From the NCBI RefSeq assembly GCF_001514285.1, contig NZ_KQ949030.1:370634-434633 (forward strand): 64,000 bases of DNA. Direction: 5' to 3'. This stretch comes from Streptomyces sp. DSM 15324 (GTDB lineage: Bacteria > Actinomycetota > Actinomycetes > Streptomycetales > Streptomycetaceae). The notes beneath the pieces are model-generated. The model worked only from the letters and a program-made list of their open reading frames with translations, ran no database searches and was not told the origin of the DNA. A program made the position numbers and the translations under genes. Below are positions 5,080 through 14,204 of this stretch, piece by piece. Within the stretch, counting starts at the first letter, position 1; each line of letters opens with the position of its first letter.

Positions 5080-5985
5080 GTCAGCACTTCGTCAATCCGC
5101 TCGCCGAGGCGTCTTTCCGGCGGACGTGCGGACAGATCCCTGCCGTCCTGGGCCGAATCCCCCGGCTGGTGTGGCGGACCGACCGGCGGGCCGTGCATCT
5201 GCTGCTCGGCTGCCAGCCCGTCGCGGGCGTCTCGGCCACCGTGCTGCTGACCGCCTCGGAGCGGTGGGAGTGGGTCTCGTAGTCGCGACGGTGTTGCATG
5301 AACCAGCCGAAGGTGCGCTCGACAACCCAACGCCGAGGGATCACCTTGAATCCTTTGACTCCCGGGTCGCGCTGGACGACTTCGACGTCGATTCCCAGGC
5401 GGGCCCCGTGGTCGATGGCCTTCGTGCAATGGCCGGTGTCGGCCCACGCCCTGGTCACGCGAGGGGTCGCGGCAGAGATCTGGGAGAGCAGATGGATGCC
5501 GCCGGCGTTGACGGAGACGCTCGCCGCGGTCACCCAGACGGCCAGAAGCAGGCCGAGGGTGTCGACGCCGATCTGACGCTTGCGACCTGCGATTTTCTTG
5601 CCCGCGTCGATTCCTTGGCTGGATGAGGGAACGTTGGCGGAGGTCTTGACGCTCTGGGCGTCCAGTACGCTGCGCTCGGCTCGGCGTCGCGGCCTTCGGC
5701 CTCGCGCACAAGGCGTCGCAGCGCGCCGTTGAGCTGGTCGAAGATGCCCTCTTTCTGCCAGGCGGCGAAGTAGCCGTAGACGGTCTCCCACGGCGCGAAG
5801 TCGTGGGGCAAGTAGCGCCAGGGGATCCCGGTGCGGTCGACGTAGAGGATGGCGTCCAGATGCGGCGCAGGTCGTGCTCGGGCGGGCGGCCGATCTCCAG
5901 GCCTTTGCCTCTGCGCTCAGCCCGCCAGGCGACGAGTGTGGGACCGATCAACTCCCAGCGGGCATGGAGCAGACAGGAGCGACTC
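5080..5985 (-). pseudogene. Degenerate IS5-family transposase
   Basis: Pieces of one transposase appear in three frames. WELIGPTLVAWRAERRGKG comes first (from about 5970). After a lost base near 5853 come PHDFAPWETVYGYFAAWQ and FDQLNGALRRLV. After another shift near 5675 come VLDAQSVKTSANVPSSSQG (the first catalytic Asp), KKIAGRKRQIGVDTLGLLL and ERTFGWFMQHRRDYE (the catalytic Glu region). The C-terminus is frameshifted too. Order and spacing fit a full-length IS5-type DDE transposase of about 280 residues, now dead. No terminal repeats were found. Confidence 0.8.
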
Positions 5986-6126: not shown

Positions 6127-6474
6127 GTGGAACGAGATGTTCAGCTGGTGCGGGACTTGATCGCGGTCGCGCCTGGCTTCCAGGACCTACTTGACGCGCA
6201 TGTCTTCAACGAGGGCAGTGTCCTGCCCCATGTGTTCTTCTGGGATGTCGTTCAGGAGACCGTCGCGTCGTTCCTTGGAGAAGACGGGACCTGGCGCGTC
6301 ACGCTGCGGTTCCTGGAAGAGCAGCTTCGACTTGATCTCCCCGAAGTGAGCCAGGTGGTCAGCACTTCGTTCCTCTTCAATCTGCCATGGCCGGACCAGC
6401 CCGGATACGGCCTTGTTGATCACCTTGGTCCCGCCATGAGTGCGCGGTTCGCTGCGATCCGACCGTCCGGCTAG
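6127..6474 (+). CDS. Small acidic protein of unknown function
   Basis: 115 residues from GTG 6127, which has a strong GGGAGG ribosome site nine bases upstream; an in-frame GTG at 6103 has none. The protein is acidic, with no signal peptide or membrane segment (DVQLVRDLIAVAPGFQDLLD, then LPHVFFWDVVQETVASF and a C-terminal LVDHLGPAMSARF). Layout and composition resemble small stand-alone actinobacterial DUF proteins that occur beside mobile elements (DUF7674-like by recall, not certain). It is wedged between two dead IS5-type transposases. Its intact frame and good ribosome site suggest it is still expressed. Confidence 0.65.
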   Translation: MERDVQLVRDLIAVAPGFQDLLDAHVFNEGSVLPHVFFWDVVQETVASFLGEDGTWRVTLRFLEEQLRLDLPEVSQVVSTSFLFNLPWPDQPGYGLVDHLGPAMSARFAAIRPSG

Positions 6475-6499
6475 GGCTTGCGTGGTCGACCGTGTGACT

Positions 6500-7420
6500 G
6501 CCGCGTGGCGAGACCGTTGCTATGGCCATAAGGCCGGGCTATCCGAGAATGCGGAGTGGGTACGGCTGCGGCCGTTCCTGCCGGTCAGCAGTAGGCGTTG
6601 TGGCCGTTGGCGGGATCACCGGCAGGTGATCGACGGGATTCTGCACCGGGTGCGGACCGGCGTGCAGGGGCGTGACCTGCCCGAACGGTTCGGGGCATGG
6701 AAGGCGGTCTACGAACGGCACCGCCTGTGGTTGGCCGACGGGACGTGGGAGCGTCTGCTCCAGCAGGTCCAGGCCGCGGCGGATGCCGTAGGCGAGGACT
6801 GGGCTGTCTCGGTCGACTCCACCATCGTGCGGGCGCATCAGCATGCGGCGGGTGCCCGCACCGACCCGCCGCCGGCGCCCGCTTCAAAGGGGGCCGAAGG
6901 GTCAGAACATCAGGACGAAACTCCGTGGCAGAGCCTGCACGCCCGCCTGGTGGAGGTGGTGCGGGAGGTGAGGGCCTGGGCCGCTCGCGCGGCGGCTTCA
7001 CGACCAAGCTCCACCTGAGCGCGGACGGTCATTGCCGCCCGCTGTCCCTGATCGTCACACCGGGTCAGCGAGCGGACTGCACCCAGTTCCAACCGGTTCT
7101 GGAGAAGATCCGAGTCCCGAAGTCGGGGCCGGGCAGGCCTCGCAAGAAGCCCGACAGCGTCGCGGCGATCCCGGAGAAGACCGGCAGCCAGGCCGCCCGC
7201 CTGCGCAAAGGCTTACGCGGCGGGCGGCCACCCGGCTTCGACGAGGAGCAGTACAAGAAACGCAACACCGTCCAGGGTGGGCGAGGCGTTCGGGGCGGTC
7301 AAACGCTTGCGGGACATGGAGTCCTCCACAGGAAGGGCGGTGGGCAGGTGGGGCAGCCGGCCGGCTTGCTGTCCACGTCGAGGCCCCCGAAGGACTCGGC
7401 TCCGAGTTGCGATGTGCCCT
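6500..7420 (+). pseudogene. Degenerate IS5-family transposase with internal deletion
   Basis: The N-terminal half is read from about 6535 (RRCGRWRDHRQVIDGILHRV, LPERFGAWKAVYERH, WAVSVDSTIVRAHQHAAGAR). It shifts frame near 6960 into LGRSRGGFTTKLHLSADG and SLIVTPGQRADCTQF. A segment between VAA and IPEKTGSQAARLRKG, normally holding the second Asp region, has been deleted. After KKRNTV the frame breaks again into FGAVKRLRDMES. It is a different copy from the minus-strand IS5 remnant at 5080. It ends about 70 bases before the NTPase gene and could have supplied sequence to its promoter. Confidence 0.8.
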
Positions 7421-7485: not shown

Positions 7486-10400
7486 ATGAGTGGCGACACG
7501 GGGGGCGGCCGACTGGACCCGAGTGGCCCGAAGCGGCCGCGGCCGCTGAAACGGGCGCGGGTGGGATGGCCGCCCGCGCTGCGCAAGCTCAAGGAGCTGC
7601 TGTACGAGGTGCATCTGGCAGCGGATGCCCCCAGCCTGGACGAGATCGTCAGGGACATCGCCGACGACGACGGCCTGCCCGGGTCGCCAGGTCCGGATAC
7701 GGTCCACCGCCTCATCACCGACAACGAACGGCCCGGCCAGCAGGCCGATGTGGTGGCCGTGGCCACGGTGCTGGCCCGCCGGGCCCGCTGGGATGCACCG
7801 GATCTGGCGGGGCGGGTGCGCGAACTGTGGGTGCAGGCGGGGACGGCGCAGGGGGCGGGGCGCCCGATCAGCGACCTTCGCGGCGATGTTCGGCTCGTTC
7901 TGGACGGAGGTCTAGGGGTCCACCCGGCGCTGGACACCGATGGCGCCCGCGAGCGGTTCGGGGCCCTGCCCGCCTACGTCCCGCGGGACCACGACGCGCA
8001 CGTGAAGGCGGTGGTCGATGCGGCGAAAGCCGGGCACAGCGGCATCGCGGTCCTGGTCGGGGGTTCGTCCACGGGCAAGACCCGCGCTTTGTGGGAGGCC
8101 GTCGGCGAGTTGCCGGACAGCTGGAGGCTGTGGCATCCCCTGAGCCCCACCGCGCCTGATGCGGTTCTGGCTTCACTGCCGGACATCGCCCCGAAGACCG
8201 TGGTGTGGCTCAACGAGGCCCAGCATTACCTGACCCCGACCCCGCTCGGTGAGCAGGTCGCGGCGGGCCTGCGGGAGCTGCTGAACGATCCGTCCCGGGG
8301 CCCAGTGCTGGTCCTGGGCACCCTGTGGCCCCAGCACTGGGACACCTTGACCACCCGCGACCGGCACGCCGGCGCCCGCGAACTGCTCGGCGGGCACAAG
8401 ATAGACGTGCCGGATGCCTTCACACCGGCCGACCTGGCCGCACTCGATGCCACCGACCCCCGGCTTGCGCAGGCCGCGCAGGACGCAAAGAGTGCGCAGG
8501 TCACCCAGTACCTGGCCGGCGTGCCGTACCTGATGGACCGCTATGGCGCAGCCCGGCGAGCAACCCTGGCCTTCATCCACGCGGCGATGGACGCCCGTCG
8601 CCTGGGCGCTGGCCTTCACCTCCCGCTGGCCTGGCTCGCCGATGCCGCCCCCGGCTACCTCGACGACGACGAATACCGCACTCTCGACCGCAATTGGCTG
8701 ACCCGGGCCCTCGACTACGTCACCACGTCCTGCAACGGCATCCCCGGCATCCTCACTCTGGTCACCAACAGCGGCCCCCGCAACCAGCGCACCCGCCGTG
8801 AGCCCACGCCCAGTCCGCAGGGGCCGCACTACCTGCTGGCCGATTACCTCGACCAGCACGGCCGCCAACACCGAGCCGAGACCATTCCGCCCATTGACTT
8901 CTGGACTGCAGCCGCCCAACGCGCCCGCCCCGCCGACTTGTGCATCCTTGGTGAGGCCGCCTGGAGTCGCGGCCTATACCGCGACGCTGCCCAGCTCCAC
9001 AAGAACGCCACTGCCCACGGTGATCCCAACGCCCCGCAAAGCCTCGTCAGTCACTTTCGAGACCTGCATCCCACCGACCCCCGCCCTGCCCATTGGGCTG
9101 CCGCGCACGCGGCCATCGACCACCCAGGTGCGGTATCCCTTCTGTTCGACTACCTGACGCACGGGGCCGTGGAGCAGGCCATGGTCCTTGCCAAACGTGC
9201 CGCCGCGCATGTGGCCCTCGACGACCCGGGTACGGTGCTTGGGTTGCTGGCCAGGCTGCGACGGGACGGGGCCATCGAGCAGGCCACGACCCTGGCCACA
9301 CGCGCTGCCACACACATGGCCCTGGACGACCCGGGCGAAGTGACCCGGCTTTTGGACGACCTGCGACGGGCCGGGGCTGTCGAGCAAGCCATGGTCCTGG
9401 CCAAACGTGCCGCCGCGCATGTGGCCCTCGACCGCCCGAAGGAGGTGGCCCATGTGCTGCAACAGTTGCGGGTGGTCTATGCAGACGATCAGGTGGCTGC
9501 GCTGCTGGCCCGTGACCCCGCGGCACACGTAGCCCTCGACGACCCGGGCGCGGTAGCCCATCTTCTTTACCAGCTACGGGAGGCCGGGGCCGTTGCCCAG
9601 GTGGCTGCGCTGCTGTCCCGTGACCCCGCCGCACAGGTGGCCCTCGACGACCCGGGCGCGGTAGCCCATCTTCTTTACCAGCTACGGGAGGCCGGGGCCG
9701 TTGCCCAGGTGGCTGCGCTGCTGTCCCGTGACCCCGCCGCACACGTGGCCGTCAGCTCCGCATACTGGGTGGACAATCTGCTGCGGATTCTGCGGATGGC
9801 CGGGGGCGGCGAGCAGGCCGACGCCCTGGCAACACGATTTGCAGCGCACGTAGACATCACCGACTCAAATGAGCTGGCCGGGCTGCTATGGCATCTGCGG
9901 GAGAACGAATGCGTCGAGCAGGCCGTCGCGTTGCTGGCCCGTGACCCCGCCGCACACGTGACCATCAACGACCCGGCGGCGGTGGCTGCGCTGCTGAGCG
10001 GCCTGCGAGTGGTCTGCGCGGACGAGCAAATCGCTGCGCTGCTGGCTCGTGACCCCGCCGCACACGCGACCTTCGACGACCCGTACGGGGTGTCCCGGCT
10101 GCTGTACGAGTTGCGGTGGGCTGGCGCCGTCGACCAAGCCAACGCGTTGTTGGCCCGTGACCCTGCCGCACACGTGACTATCAACGACCCGGCGGCGGTG
10201 GCTGCGCTGCTGGGCGAGTTACAAGAGGCCGGGGCCGTGGAGCAGGTGGCTGCACTGCTGGCCCGTGACCACGCCGCGCACGTATCCCTCGACGACCCGC
10301 GCGGAGTGACCGGATTGCTGAATCGCCTGCAGAAGGCCGGCGCCGTGGAGCAGGTGGCTGCACTGCTGGCCCGTAACCCTGCCATCCACGTACCCTTCGA

Positions 10401-10713
10401 CGACCCAGAGGGGGTAGCCGGGTTGCTGTACAAATTCCGGGAGGCAGGGGCAGTCGACCAGGTGACTGTGTTATTAGCCCGTAACCCTGCCGCACACGTA
10501 CCCCTCAACGACCCAAACGCCGTCACCAAGTTGGTGGACAGCCTGCGGAAGGTTGGGGCCGACGATCAGGCCAAGGTCTTGGCCGAGCGGCTCCCCGCCA
10601 CAGGGAGTTTCCATCATTTCATCAGGCTCCAAGGCAATGCACCCCAGTTCAGACTTGGCCGCGAACCTGACGGGCGTGCCGCCCTTTCGTGGGACTGGGG
10701 CGATTTGGAGTGA
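7486..10713 (+). CDS. Large P-loop NTPase (STAND-like) with about 14 tandem helical repeats
   Basis: 1075 residues from ATG 7486 (GGGAGGGGAG upstream). N-terminus: a helix-turn-helix-like segment (residues 30-110, SLDEIVRDIADDDGLPG). Then a P-loop NTPase core with Walker A GGSSTGKT (about 192-199) and a Walker-B-like TVVWLNEAQ (about 238-246). A helical middle follows, and from residue 546 to about 1035 there are 14 repeats of 34-36 residues with consensus DPxAVAxLLxxLREAGAxEQVAALLARDPAAHVxL. The C-terminal tail ends SWDWGDLE. The order sensor/helix-turn-helix, NTPase, superstructure-forming repeats is that of STAND signalling or defence ATPases; the ligand is unknown. Two adjacent TTA codons (10471-10476) make translation likely to need the bldA leucyl-tRNA. 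Flanked on both sides by dead transposases, which fits an accessory locus. Confidence 0.85.
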   Translation: MSGDTGGGRLDPSGPKRPRPLKRARVGWPPALRKLKELLYEVHLAADAPSLDEIVRDIADDDGLPGSPGPDTVHRLITDNERPGQQADVVAVATVLARRARWDAPDLAGRVRELWVQAGTAQGAGRPISDLRGDVRLVLDGGLGVHPALDTDGARERFGALPAYVPRDHDAHVKAVVDAAKAGHSGIAVLVGGSSTGKTRALWEAVGELPDSWRLWHPLSPTAPDAVLASLPDIAPKTVVWLNEAQHYLTPTPLGEQVAAGLRELLNDPSRGPVLVLGTLWPQHWDTLTTRDRHAGARELLGGHKIDVPDAFTPADLAALDATDPRLAQAAQDAKSAQVTQYLAGVPYLMDRYGAARRATLAFIHAAMDARRLGAGLHLPLAWLADAAPGYLDDDEYRTLDRNWLTRALDYVTTSCNGIPGILTLVTNSGPRNQRTRREPTPSPQGPHYLLADYLDQHGRQHRAETIPPIDFWTAAAQRARPADLCILGEAAWSRGLYRDAAQLHKNATAHGDPNAPQSLVSHFRDLHPTDPRPAHWAAAHAAIDHPGAVSLLFDYLTHGAVEQAMVLAKRAAAHVALDDPGTVLGLLARLRRDGAIEQATTLATRAATHMALDDPGEVTRLLDDLRRAGAVEQAMVLAKRAAAHVALDRPKEVAHVLQQLRVVYADDQVAALLARDPAAHVALDDPGAVAHLLYQLREAGAVAQVAALLSRDPAAQVALDDPGAVAHLLYQLREAGAVAQVAALLSRDPAAHVAVSSAYWVDNLLRILRMAGGGEQADALATRFAAHVDITDSNELAGLLWHLRENECVEQAVALLARDPAAHVTINDPAAVAALLSGLRVVCADEQIAALLARDPAAHATFDDPYGVSRLLYELRWAGAVDQANALLARDPAAHVTINDPAAVAALLGELQEAGAVEQVAALLARDHAAHVSLDDPRGVTGLLNRLQKAGAVEQVAALLARNPAIHVPFDDPEGVAGLLYKFREAGAVDQVTVLLARNPAAHVPLNDPNAVTKLVDSLRKVGADDQAKVLAERLPATGSFHHFIRLQGNAPQFRLGREPDGRAALSWDWGDLE
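9532..9743 (+). repeat. Exact 104-bp direct repeat inside the NTPase repeat domain
   Basis: Bases 9532-9635 recur identically at 9640-9743, a 108-base period equal to one 36-residue protein repeat (repeats 5 and 6). Neighbouring repeats differ at many positions, so this is a recent unit duplication and a likely site for gain or loss of repeats in frame. Confidence 0.9.
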
Positions 10714-10755
10714 ACCAATCTCTCTACGCGGACACTCGGTAGGGTGTTCGCCTGA

Positions 10756-11500
10756 CGTGGACACGGCCTTCGGCTGATCCTGCGTCCGGACCGTCTGTTC
10801 TGTCACGTCTACGGCCGCGGTGGCCGGTCCTCGGACCAGTTCGTGCCGGGCTGGCCCTACTCGTTCGTAGCCGCGCTGGAGAAGCACGGCGGGGAGTTCC
10901 GCTTCGCCACACCGGAGACCTGGGGCACTGCGGACGCGGCAACCGTGCAGGTAACCGACCGCTACGGCACCGCCCGCACGATGGCCTGGGACCGCATCCA
11001 CCCGCGCCTGACCACCCGCTCCACCTGGATCGACCACACCACCGAACTCCCCGTCATCGAAGGAACCCAGATCCGCCTCCAGGTCGACCGGCTGCCCGGC
11101 GGGAACGATCCCCTCCCGCTCTGGCTGTGGTCCTCGGCCACCGGCCTGACCGGCGACGACACCGACATCCGCTGGCAGGCGTTCCTCCGCCGCTTCGACC
11201 TGGAACACACCTTCCGGATAGCCAAACAGACACTGGGCTGGACCCGCCCCAAGCTCCGCACCCCCGAGGCAGCCGACCGCTGGACCTGGCTGATCATCAC
11301 TGCCCACACCCAACGTCGTCTCCTCCGTGAGACTGCCGCTGATCTCCGCCACCCCTGGGAACGACCCGCTGAGCCCGGTCGGCTGACCCCGGCCCGCGTC
11401 CGCCAGGGGTGCAGGAACCTCCGCCCGCATCGCCAAACGGTCCGAGAGCATCAAAGAACGCTCACGGGCCGGGGGATAAAGCACAACCTGAGCAAGGACG
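10756..11500 (+). pseudogene. 5'-truncated transposase (IS4-like, NF041680 type)
   Basis: The open frame starts directly after a stop at 10753 with LILRPDRLFCHVYGRGGRSS and DQFVPGWPYSFVAALE. It continues through a DDE-type core to WQAFLRRFDLEHTFRIAKQ and AADRWTWLIITAHTQ. The normal N-terminal third is missing. After RLTPARVRQG the C-terminus is frameshifted (the usual Pro/Lys-rich tail appears in another frame). It immediately follows the NTPase gene stop (10713), so the insertion edge lies near 10720-10770. Confidence 0.7.
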
Positions 11501-11641
11501 GTTCCCAACCCGGCAGCCGGTCCCATCTGCCGCGGGGCTGCCGGTGCCACACCTCTCCGTCGGCGATCACAATGGCGGGAACCGACCACTCCACGTGACA
11601 GTCTTCACACGCGTGTGATCCAACCCGTTGCGGTGTCGCCC

Positions 11642-13114
11642 TCAACACGTGTCGGCGGCTGCTGAGCGCCCGGCGCGCCTGCCGAGCACCGAACCGGCGG
11701 TGAGGCCGGAGCCACCGGGGTAGTTGAACCAGAAGAGCCCGCCGACGAGTTCGCCGGCCGCGTACAGCCCAGGGACGGGGCGACCGCTCAGGTCCAGCAC
11801 GCGCGCGTCGGCGTCGATCCGCAGCCCGCCGAAGGTGAAGGTGATGCCGCAGGTCACCGGGAAGGCGACGTACGGAGGAGTGGTCAGCGGCTGGGCCCAG
11901 TTGGACTTGGGAGGAGTGATGCCCTCGGTCCGGCAGCCGTCCTTGACCGTCGGGTCGAAGCGACCGGGGACAACGGCGGCGTTGAACCGCTCAACCGTCT
12001 CCGCCAGCCGGCCCTCGTCCATGCCGAGTTGCTTGGCCAGGCCCTCCACGGTGGCGGACTCCACCCTGGTGATGCCCGCCGAGGCGTACTCCTCGGGGCG
12101 CAGCAGCGGCGCGGACGTCGCGTCGAAGAGCTGGTAGGCGACGCCTGCCGGTTGCTTGAGGATCTCGGCACCGTACTTGGCGTAGGTGTAGTTGCGGAAG
12201 TCCGCTCCCTCGTCGACGAACCGGCGGCCCTCGGTGTTGACTACGATGCCGAACGGGTAGCCGCCGCGAGTGAGTTGGTTGGTCAGCTCCCGGTCGCCGG
12301 TCGCTCGTGCCTGGCTGTCCCAGGCCACCGCGTGGCAGCCGCTCCAGTGGCCGTAGGGTTGCGCGCCGGCCGCCAGGGCCATGCGGATGCCGTCGCCGGT
12401 GTTGTACGGGGTTCCGCGCACCAGGGCCAGGTCCCAGCCCGCGCCCAGGTAGGCGGCCCGCATCTGCGGGTTGGCCTCGAAGCCGCCGCTGGTGAGTACC
12501 ACGCCGTCGGCCTGGATGCGCTGCCCGTCGGCGAGCATCACGCCGCGGACGGAGCCGTCGGGTCCGGTGGCCAGGCCGCTGACGGGGCTGTCGAAGCGGA
12601 TGTCGATGCCGCTGCGATCGGCGGCGGCAAGGTGCTGGTCGATCATTCCTTTGCCCCCGCCGACCACGCCGACGGCCAGTCCGCCCCAGAACCGGTAGCG
12701 CCCGTCCACCTGGTAAGCCTGGCGGTGGAACATGAGCTCGAATCGCAGGCCGAGGCTGCGCAGCCAGGTCATCGTCTCGCGGGATTCACCGACCAGGATC
12801 CCGGCGAGTTCGGGGTCGGTCCTTCCCTGGGTTACCCGGGACAGGTCGGCGAGGAAGTCGTCGTCGGTGTAGGGGGCGAGGTCGACGCGTCCTGCGCGGT
12901 CCGCGGGAAGCGGCTCGACCAGCGAGGTGAGGTCGGTGAGCCCGCCGTGGCTGGTGCGCATCGCCCCGGCTGTGAAGTAGGAGTTGCCTCCGGCCCATGG
13001 GCGGGGGGCCTTCTCCAGCAGCAGCACCCGTGCTCCCTGCTGTCGGGCGGACTGAGCCGCGCTGAAGCCGGCGTTCCCGCCGCCGACCACGACGACGTCC
13101 CACTGCTCGCTCAT
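11642..13114 (-). CDS. FAD-dependent tricarballylate dehydrogenase-like flavoprotein
   Basis: 490 residues from ATG 13112-13114, after GGGAG. It begins with the dinucleotide-binding fold WDVVVVGGGNAGFSAAQSAR, then a capping domain, and ends with the FAD-contact block GLYAAGELVGGLFWFNYPGG near residue 455. This is the fumarate reductase / succinate dehydrogenase flavoprotein superfamily; the overall pattern matches TcuA, which oxidises tricarballylate to cis-aconitate. A related 3-ketosteroid or fumarate-type substrate is possible. No partner electron-transfer protein (TcuB) or permease sits next to it. It is divergent from a LysR gene that probably controls it. Confidence 0.8.
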   Translation of the reverse strand: MSEQWDVVVVGGGNAGFSAAQSARQQGARVLLLEKAPRPWAGGNSYFTAGAMRTSHGGLTDLTSLVEPLPADRAGRVDLAPYTDDDFLADLSRVTQGRTDPELAGILVGESRETMTWLRSLGLRFELMFHRQAYQVDGRYRFWGGLAVGVVGGGKGMIDQHLAAADRSGIDIRFDSPVSGLATGPDGSVRGVMLADGQRIQADGVVLTSGGFEANPQMRAAYLGAGWDLALVRGTPYNTGDGIRMALAAGAQPYGHWSGCHAVAWDSQARATGDRELTNQLTRGGYPFGIVVNTEGRRFVDEGADFRNYTYAKYGAEILKQPAGVAYQLFDATSAPLLRPEEYASAGITRVESATVEGLAKQLGMDEGRLAETVERFNAAVVPGRFDPTVKDGCRTEGITPPKSNWAQPLTTPPYVAFPVTCGITFTFGGLRIDADARVLDLSGRPVPGLYAAGELVGGLFWFNYPGGSGLTAGSVLGRRAGRSAAADTC

Positions 13115-13254
13115 GTGTACTCCCATGGGTTCGGGGCTGCGTACGCGACCGCAGCGTGGATGTCTTTCACCAGGGCCTGGTGAGCGGGGCGAAGGCTGCG
13201 CGGCCCGCCTGCAGGTCAACACGACGATGCGCCAGCAGTGCCATCAGTACAATC

Positions 13255-13276
13255 GAAAGAAATTGAGGGTGCTTTC
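13255..13276. promoter_or_regulatory. Candidate LysR operator (GAAAG-N12-CTTTC)
   Basis: An inverted repeat GAAAG (13255-13259) and CTTTC (13272-13276) with a 12-base spacer lies in the 184-base gap between the divergent flavoprotein and LysR genes, 23 bases before the LysR start. Position and shape fit an autoregulatory LysR site. Confidence 0.4.
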
Positions 13277-13298
13277 ATGAATACTTAAGGCGGTGAGG

Positions 13299-14204
13299 AT
13301 GAGCTTCGACGTACGCCGCATGCTGGTGCTGGCCGAGGTGGCTCGCCGGGGCTCCATCACGGCGGCCTCGATCGCCCTGAGCTATACGCCCTCGGCGGTG
13401 TCCCAGCAGATCAGCAGGCTGGAAGCGGAGGCCGGGCAGCCGCTGATCGTGCGGCACCCCCGGGGCGTCACGCTCACCGAGGCCGGCCGCACTCTGGTCG
13501 AGCATGCTGCACGGATCGATCGCCAGTTGCGGGCCGCACGCCGATCCCTCGATGACATCGCGGGCCTGCACAGCGGGACCTTGCACATCGGTACCTTCCC
13601 CACCATCGCCGCATCCCTGCTGCCCCGCGTCGTGCGCGCCTTTCGCACCCGGTACCCGCAGGTTGAGCTGGCCGTGCACAGCGCCCGCAACGCCGGCCTG
13701 ATGGACATCCTGGAGAGCCGGGAGATCGAGCTGTCCTTGATGTGGGACTACCCGTGGCGGCGCCTGGACGAGACCAACCTCGATGTCATCCATCTGCTGG
13801 ACGACCACACCTGCCTGGTCGTCGCCACCAGCCACCCGCTCGCCGCCCGGCACTCCGCCGGTTTTGATGAGCTGGCCGAGGAGAACTGGATCGTCCGGGG
13901 CGATCACCCGGTCGCCGAGCTGCTCACCCGTAGCTGCCGTGCCGCCGGCTTCGAGCCGAAGATCGCCTACCGGGCACACGACTACCAGGAGGCCCAGGCC
14001 ATGGCGGCGGTCGGCCTGGGCATCACGCTCGCCCCCAGGTTCGCCCTGGCCGGCCTGCGGGATGACGTCACCACCATCGATCTGGGCCCCGCGGCCCCGG
14101 TTCGCCGCATCCTGCTCACCCGGCTGCGCGACAATCCACCGACACCGTCAGCCAAGGCCATCGCGGAACTGTTCATCGAGACGGCCGGGACGCTGTGTTC
14201 ATAG
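13299..14204 (+). CDS. LysR-family transcriptional regulator
   Basis: 301 residues from ATG 13299 (a GTG two codons upstream is possible). The winged helix is at residues 1-60 (MLVLAEVARRGSITAAS, SPSAVSQQISRLE-type recognition helix, GVTLTEAGRTLVEHAARI). The rest is the periplasmic-binding-like effector domain (SGTLHIGTFPTIAASLLP to VGLGITLAPRFAL). It is divergent from the TcuA-like gene, the classical arrangement for a LysR activator of its neighbour. The likely ligand is the substrate of that enzyme. Confidence 0.9.
   Translation: MSFDVRRMLVLAEVARRGSITAASIALSYTPSAVSQQISRLEAEAGQPLIVRHPRGVTLTEAGRTLVEHAARIDRQLRAARRSLDDIAGLHSGTLHIGTFPTIAASLLPRVVRAFRTRYPQVELAVHSARNAGLMDILESREIELSLMWDYPWRRLDETNLDVIHLLDDHTCLVVATSHPLAARHSAGFDELAEENWIVRGDHPVAELLTRSCRAAGFEPKIAYRAHDYQEAQAMAAVGLGITLAPRFALAGLRDDVTTIDLGPAAPVRRILLTRLRDNPPTPSAKAIAELFIETAGTLCS

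Follow-up and report, generated by a model that had tools for sequence, protein, structure and literature searches.

A STAND-type ATPase with internally homogenised solenoid repeats is a candidate non-self receptor in Streptomyces sp. DSM 15324

What might a large ATPase do that ends in a long array of near-identical repeats and is encoded amid the remains of insertion sequences? This question is raised by a gene of Streptomyces sp. DSM 15324 located in a 64,000-nucleotide stretch of contig NZ_KQ949030.1 (hereafter the window, in whose numbering all coordinates are given), which a first-pass annotation of the sequence had proposed to encode a signalling or defence protein. The open reading frame is intact, running on the forward strand from an ATG at 7486 to a stop codon ending at 10713 (7486..10713), and encodes a protein of 1075 amino acids that, on the basis of the ORF and of full-length relatives, was listed as a putative NLR-like (STAND-type) receptor. 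The frame is open upstream as far as 6697 only because an IS5 remnant is read through, and the start at 7486 is supported by an annotated plasmid homologue that begins at the matching residue 1. The mobile-element debris described in the first-pass annotation is real, with transposase fragments on both sides of the gene: a decayed IS5-family fragment on the reverse strand (5081..5791; NF033580), a frameshifted IS5-family remnant on the forward strand directly upstream (6440..7290; matching NF033580 in one frame over 6440-7018 and in a second from 6697 on) and, directly downstream on the forward strand, the C-terminal fragment of an NF041680-family transposase (10843..11598; E 6.5e-64). All parts of the protein described below are likewise encoded on the forward strand.

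The AAA+/STAND NTPase core with its helical lid (residues 161-372; 7966..8601) was delimited by conservation and fold. It is strongly conserved among 78 relatives, in which the motifs YVxRxHD, GxSSTGKTR, WLNEAQ, GTxWP and AGxP hold many invariant residues. The P-loop and the Walker B noticed in the first-pass annotation are present and nearly invariant in these relatives: Walker A reads GGSSTGKT (residues 192-199; 8059..8082), with GK198T199 invariant, and the Walker B strand reads TVVWLNEAQ (residues 238-246; 8197..8223; WLNEAQ itself at residues 241-246), with WLN243E244 invariant and Asn in place of the more usual Asp. The motif YVPRDHDAH (residues 164-172; 7975..8001), in which Y164, R167 and D170 are invariant in the 78 relatives, occupies the position that hhGRExE has in STAND proteins, and AGVP (residues 344-347; 8515..8526; A344, G345 and P347 invariant) is GxP-like and stands at the place of GxP; both are near invariant in the family, and their equivalence to the STAND motifs was judged by eye.

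The whole protein was modelled with AlphaFold2 from an alignment of 50 relatives (mean pLDDT 86.5, pTM 0.76), and residues 1-560 were modelled alone (pLDDT 87.4). Both models predicted a winged-helix domain after the lid (residues 381-452; 8626..8841; helix-helix-helix-strand-strand order) and then solenoid repeats, of which the first helices, TPR-like and preceding the regular array, span residues 453-544 in the model (8842..9117). A Foldseek search with the core had SAMD9, Apaf-1, MalT, ORC, ZAR1 (resistosome) and CED-4 as its best matches, in the significant range; with the whole model, the first match was Avs3 bound to phage terminase, and the STAND-TPR protein 6mfv ranked lower. VIA-align placed the AAA+ domains of NSF and ORC, which are general AAA+ proteins, first (Z about 13) and did not distinguish STAND proteins from the other members of AAA+. 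The predicted AAA+ fold of the core is well supported, and the STAND assignment, made by architecture and motifs, is supported; the motifs, fold matches and architecture likewise support the earlier suggestion of a STAND-type ATPase that senses through its repeats. Searches of the whole protein with Pfam, NCBIfam and PADLOC showed no credible domain, and the family has no name in any of the three; PADLOC gave weak RmrA matches in relatives only and none for the DSM 15324 protein.

The N-terminal module (residues 30-121; 7573..7848) consists of five helices in the model. Pfam detected nothing at this end of the DSM 15324 protein, yet relatives carry a plain Cro/C1 HTH at the same place (Pfam), and profile-profile comparison aligned the N-terminus with the HTH of these relatives (hhalign 95%, E 3e-8), which agrees with the HTH-like N-terminus seen in the first-pass annotation. 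In the subfamily, the tight turn of Cro/C1 HTHs gives way to a loop, DDDGLPGSPG, that is about nine residues long, so DNA binding by the module is not to be assumed. Neither a SARP-type N-terminus (OmpR-like HTH plus BTA) nor NB-ARC was found in the protein with Pfam and NCBIfam, and an enzymatic effector is absent from it, in line with the earlier remark that no effector domain is obvious. In L027, a relative from Pseudofrankia, the place of the HTH is taken by a TIR domain (PF13676, TIR_2, E 6.6e-36), fused in a single ORF with the family core and followed at the other end by a TPR-like tail. Two members of the DSM 15324 protein's own repeat subfamily, L086 and L006, carry at the N-terminus a short VQ[IA]G motif (VVQAG/AVQIG), RHIM-like and assigned by eye. 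Bacterial NLRs have been found to carry RHIM-like amyloid signalling sequences N-terminally (PMC7889193); no Bell-type partner was seen near L006, and the L086 locus was too short for one to be sought. The occurrence of Cro/C1 HTH, TIR and RHIM-like motifs on one core indicates that the N-terminal module is exchanged between relatives, as in NLRs.

The regular array (residues 545-1043; 9118..10614), a predicted alpha-solenoid sensor, contains 14 tandem repeats: ten have 36 residues, three have 35 and one has 34. This bears out the count of 14 in the first-pass annotation, with 36 rather than 35 as the commonest length. It is followed by a C-terminal cap (residues 1044-1075; 10615..10710) with a family-wide PDG motif (consensus GLxPDGxxxxPW), in which G1058 is nearly invariant in the family. 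At the DNA level, nine copies of a 287-nt reference were found, mostly at 108-nt spacing, in arrays built of 105-nt and 108-nt units, and five near-exact 37-mers were observed against 0.00 expected in shuffled sequence; the array is far beyond chance. Units 5 and 6, which adjoin each other, differ hardly at all and so point to a recent duplication. The structure prediction proposed for the array was run and gave, at good confidence, an alpha-solenoid of the TPR/PPR kind, in which each repeat has two helices, A at positions 3-15 and B at positions 19-27. In profile searches, the repeats of relatives matched TPR, PPR, Sel1 and Ank models, and other branches of the family carry a 32-residue TPR-like repeat. 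The earlier statement that the repeat is not TPR is therefore nominally right, but the repeat belongs, as a divergent form, to the TPR/PPR-like class of alpha-solenoids. DUF7922, Peptidase_S66C, YidB and other low-E Pfam matches within the repeats were rejected as repeat-composition matches.

Internal homogenisation of the repeats was evident. Among 12 proteins with the DSM 15324 repeat type, copy number varied from 6 to 15, and repeats were mostly more alike within a protein than between proteins. At least 85% internal identity over a stretch of about 100 residues was found in 25 of 99 relatives, the DSM 15324 protein included; for their cores, which served as control, the figure was 0 of 89. 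In a set of 100 repeats, positions 4, 8, 11, 12 and 19 showed an entropy of 3.4-3.7 bits, and positions 6, 9, 10, 13, 21, 25 and 28 were nearly fixed. The variability of helix A is limited to one face (permutation p 0.0001), made up of positions 4, 8, 11 and 12; position 19 is the fifth variable position of the repeat. Helix periodicity, rather than model coordinates, puts these variable residues presumably on the inner face of the solenoid.

The ratio of pN to pS was determined for pairs of repeats at least 80% identical in DNA, the positions being picked without the tested protein (leave-one-out). At the variable positions, pN was 0.288 and pS 0.175, a ratio of 1.64 (about 1.37-2.44 in a bootstrap over proteins). 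This ratio was estimated by counting, from pairs that are related; constraint on GC-rich third positions can raise it, and relaxed constraint alone could bring it near 1 or slightly above. At the remaining repeat positions, pN was 0.104 and pS 0.152 (ratio 0.69). The leave-one-out value equals the pooled value because the five positions were identical in every fold. In the DSM 15324 protein alone, whose repeats are more diverged, the values were 1.05 at the variable positions and 0.56 elsewhere. The same test on the independent 32-aa repeat type (28 proteins), in which positions 21, 25 and 28 are the counterparts of 4, 8 and 11 in the DSM 15324 type, gave 1.71 versus 0.63. In both repeat types, one face of helix A thus shows an excess of amino-acid change, suggesting diversifying selection on the predicted sensor surface, and a receptor that discriminates between self and non-self would be expected to show such one-face hypervariability.

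The first-pass annotation had named conservation in all Streptomyces cores as an outcome that would speak against its proposal. What was found instead was a match in 70 of 199 Streptomyces species genomes and in 5 of 21 near relatives, the DSM 15324 genome included, often in chromosome arms and also on plasmids; the family is therefore accessory. On near-complete chromosomes, 11 of 20 placed copies lie within 15% of a chromosome end (binomial p 0.017), and a uniformity test on the same 20 copies gave p 0.06, genome sizes being rounded. Plasmid records carrying the family number 85, mostly from Streptomyces, several of them linear, and the gene is mostly annotated as hypothetical; no copy was found in 50,697 phage records. 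Single genomes hold up to eight matches, and elsewhere some copies contain stop codons or are broken up (L016 among them). The family also occurs in other genera, including Herbidospora, Micromonospora, Saccharothrix, Virgisporangium and Pseudofrankia; a phylum-wide survey with the core profile, in which three candidates per genome were scored, returned Streptomyces only (3 of 396).

The proposed survey of gene neighbourhoods was run over 79 loci and showed no conserved partner, no neighbour gene family recurring among the ORFs common to these loci, which speaks neither for nor against the earlier suggestion of partners encoded elsewhere. The top shared neighbour clusters were rejected as antisense shadows of the receptor gene itself. 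Linked vWA/MoxR genes, as in the VMAP/iSTAND ternary conflict system, did not appear as a recurring family across the 79 loci and are not annotated in 10 plasmid neighbourhoods. Among these 10 plasmid neighbourhoods, an uncontrolled sample, one copy lies beside type I-E cas genes, one beside restriction endonuclease and ABC-3C genes, one beside an NB-ARC gene and others beside trypco2-TPR genes. Comparison of the flanks with near relatives revealed no clean empty site, and an upstream LacI gene (85%) was the only flank feature in common with one near relative.

We consider it probable, if some way from assured, that the product of the gene is a single-protein NLR-like signal-transduction ATPase whose solenoid senses foreign elements, that is, a candidate non-self receptor. 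Ligand class, ATP-driven oligomerisation, output and non-self role are inferred here as follows. The sensor would be the C-terminal alpha-solenoid of 14 tandem repeats, whose A helices would form the inner face and bind a foreign protein or peptide (from a phage, a plasmid or another strain). Ligand binding would release the AAA+/STAND switch, ADP would be swapped for ATP, and the resulting oligomerisation would cluster the N-terminal module, a divergent HTH here and a TIR domain or RHIM-like motif in relatives. Clustering may then give rise to the output, in which responder genes would be transcribed or a partner recruited. As to the defence role suggested earlier, the TIR-fused relative, the diversification of the repeat face and the two plasmid copies by cas or restriction/ABC-3C genes point towards it indirectly, but PADLOC reported nothing. 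The protein is without enzymatic effector, PADLOC match or conserved defence partner, and its HTH would fit a regulator too; these features speak against an NLR-like reading, as do the general AAA+ proteins heading the VIA-align ranking, the limits of the pN/pS estimate given above and the value of 1.05 for the DSM 15324 protein alone.

The main rival to the NLR-like reading is a STAND-type transcription activator resembling AfsR (SARP-NB-ARC-TPR) or MalT, in which the HTH would bind DNA, the solenoid would sense an intracellular effector, and ATP-driven oligomers would switch on promoters, near or far, that serve physiology and not defence. AfsR and MalT do combine the same three parts, HTH, ATPase and solenoid, in another order; the fold search with the core had MalT among its best matches, and most relatives have kept the Cro/C1-type HTH. 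However, the family is patchy and plasmid-borne and adjoins no constant target gene, TIR replaces the HTH in one relative, the loop in the HTH turn of the subfamily may spoil DNA binding, and repeat homogenisation with diversification would be unexpected for a metabolic ligand. An activator of this kind is possible but doubtful.

Two further readings concern the repeats themselves. PPR-like repeats might read ssRNA or ssDNA of an invader base by base, and the repeat length (35/36 residues), the profile and Foldseek matches to designed PPR proteins and PPR10, and the variable residues carried by helix A are in keeping with this. The PPR code, however, uses two positions, versus the four to five variable positions per repeat here, and the 32-aa TPR-like repeats of other branches share the same variable face, so that we regard a nucleic-acid reader as highly improbable. 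Nor is there much to commend the view that the gene is drifting mobile-element cargo, in which repeat variability would reflect relaxed constraint and slippage instead of selection. The IS remnants on both flanks and the stops or splits in some copies elsewhere would suit such drift, but the ORF is intact, all motifs are conserved and the repeat scaffold is under purifying selection (pN/pS 0.63-0.69), with only the hypervariable positions above 1; drift, too, appears very unlikely.

If the NLR-like reading holds, the receptor layout is already known, and what would be new is the presence of fungal-style diversifying solenoid repeats in a bacterial NLR-like receptor. Diversifying, internally homogenised immune-receptor repeats are documented in fungal NLRs. 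Freshly amplified sensors of bacteria have, in the literature consulted, been described mainly as beta-propellers (PMC9218822). We think it unlikely, yet deserving of mention, that the family is, in Streptomyces and other filamentous actinomycetes, a patchy, plasmid-mobile bacterial counterpart of the fungal non-self receptors, with solenoids diversified by repeat recombination and one-face selection that discriminate phage, plasmid or kin between mycelia. Were this true, effector swapping together with recombination and selection of solenoids would be the same evolutionary strategy in mycelial bacteria, and the family would offer a genetically tractable route to what multicellular bacteria recognise as non-self.

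In its build, a switch ATPase joined to stacked repeats, the protein resembles innate-immune receptors of plants, animals and fungi, and several known systems come close to it. AfsR and MalT resemble it in having an HTH, a STAND ATPase and a TPR-like solenoid; the family differs in its Cro/C1-like rather than SARP or LuxR HTH, its patchy plasmid-borne occurrence and its apparently diversifying repeats. The bNACHT proteins (PMC12169576) have the same tripartite layout, and their clade 14 provides phage defence without a discernible effector domain, but the DSM 15324 core is not recognised as NACHT and is followed by a solenoid instead of a SNaCT/NCH1 C-terminus. BASS amyloid-signalling bacterial NLRs (PMC7889193) are matched by the RHIM-like N-termini before the same core in L086 and L006, unlike the DSM 15324 protein itself, which has no RHIM-like motif; no Bell-domain partner was found near L006. 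Avs3 of the Avs/AVAST group (PDB 8dgc) likewise joins a STAND-type core to a long solenoid sensor of TPR-like build, but the DSM 15324 protein is about half as long, lacks a nuclease or other enzymatic N-terminus and has no PADLOC match. WRAP-type STAND proteins (PMC9218822) are also bacterial and have recently amplified sensor repeats, which form a beta-propeller rather than an alpha-solenoid and for which the available part of that source describes no one-face hypervariability. In fungal non-self NLRs, the TPR, ANK or WD repeats are homogenised, differ in copy number and show positive selection on the inner face (PMC4986451). The NOD-like receptors of the HET-D/HET-E/HET-R type of Podospora (PMC4986451) differ from the bacterial family in repeat sequence and in having the fungal effector set in place of HTH, TIR or RHIM-like N-termini, but share with it an exchangeable N-terminal effector, a STAND NTPase, near-identical repeats within a protein, variable copy number and an excess of amino-acid change on helix faces, in their case of TPR repeats.

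Plasmid-borne copies of the family were found adjoining a type I-E cas operon at locus L118 (NZ_CP108865.1) and restriction endonuclease, ABC-three-component and HEPN genes at locus L117 (NZ_CP120984.1). The Streptomyces genome survey showed that genome G159 carries two family copies with equal scores, one per chromosome end (C1:31313 and C1:9610303), which fits the expectation for a gene within terminal inverted repeats. Family members also adjoin each other within single loci, in direct orientation in L051 (7503-10100 and 12709-15450) and tail-to-tail in L053 (7725-10388, + strand; 10472-12868, - strand). Frameshifts or stop codons break the copies at L016:8001-11036 and, in genomes G104 and G174, at C1:7754377 and C1:3686, respectively, implying that the family is also subject to decay.

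Elsewhere in the window, mobile-element debris adjoins a divergent tcuA-like FAD dehydrogenase (NF006130) and LysR regulator (11642-14204), and an internally duplicated, secreted-looking small protein (1655-2167, - strand) contains YPAYQCFK..EYCSD..AGAAWI..CP twice.

The HTH is replaced by an N-terminal RHIM-like motif in the members at L086:40-3054 (- strand; VVQAGSIHGG) and L006:4240-6594 (+ strand; AVQIGS); no partner protein bearing the RHIM-like motif of L006 was seen in the vicinity of that locus. The Pseudofrankia relative at L027:1194-4163 (+ strand) carries a TIR domain at its N-terminus, fused with the family's ATPase core and a TPR-like tail, and, because TIR output is measurable, is a good proxy for experiments.
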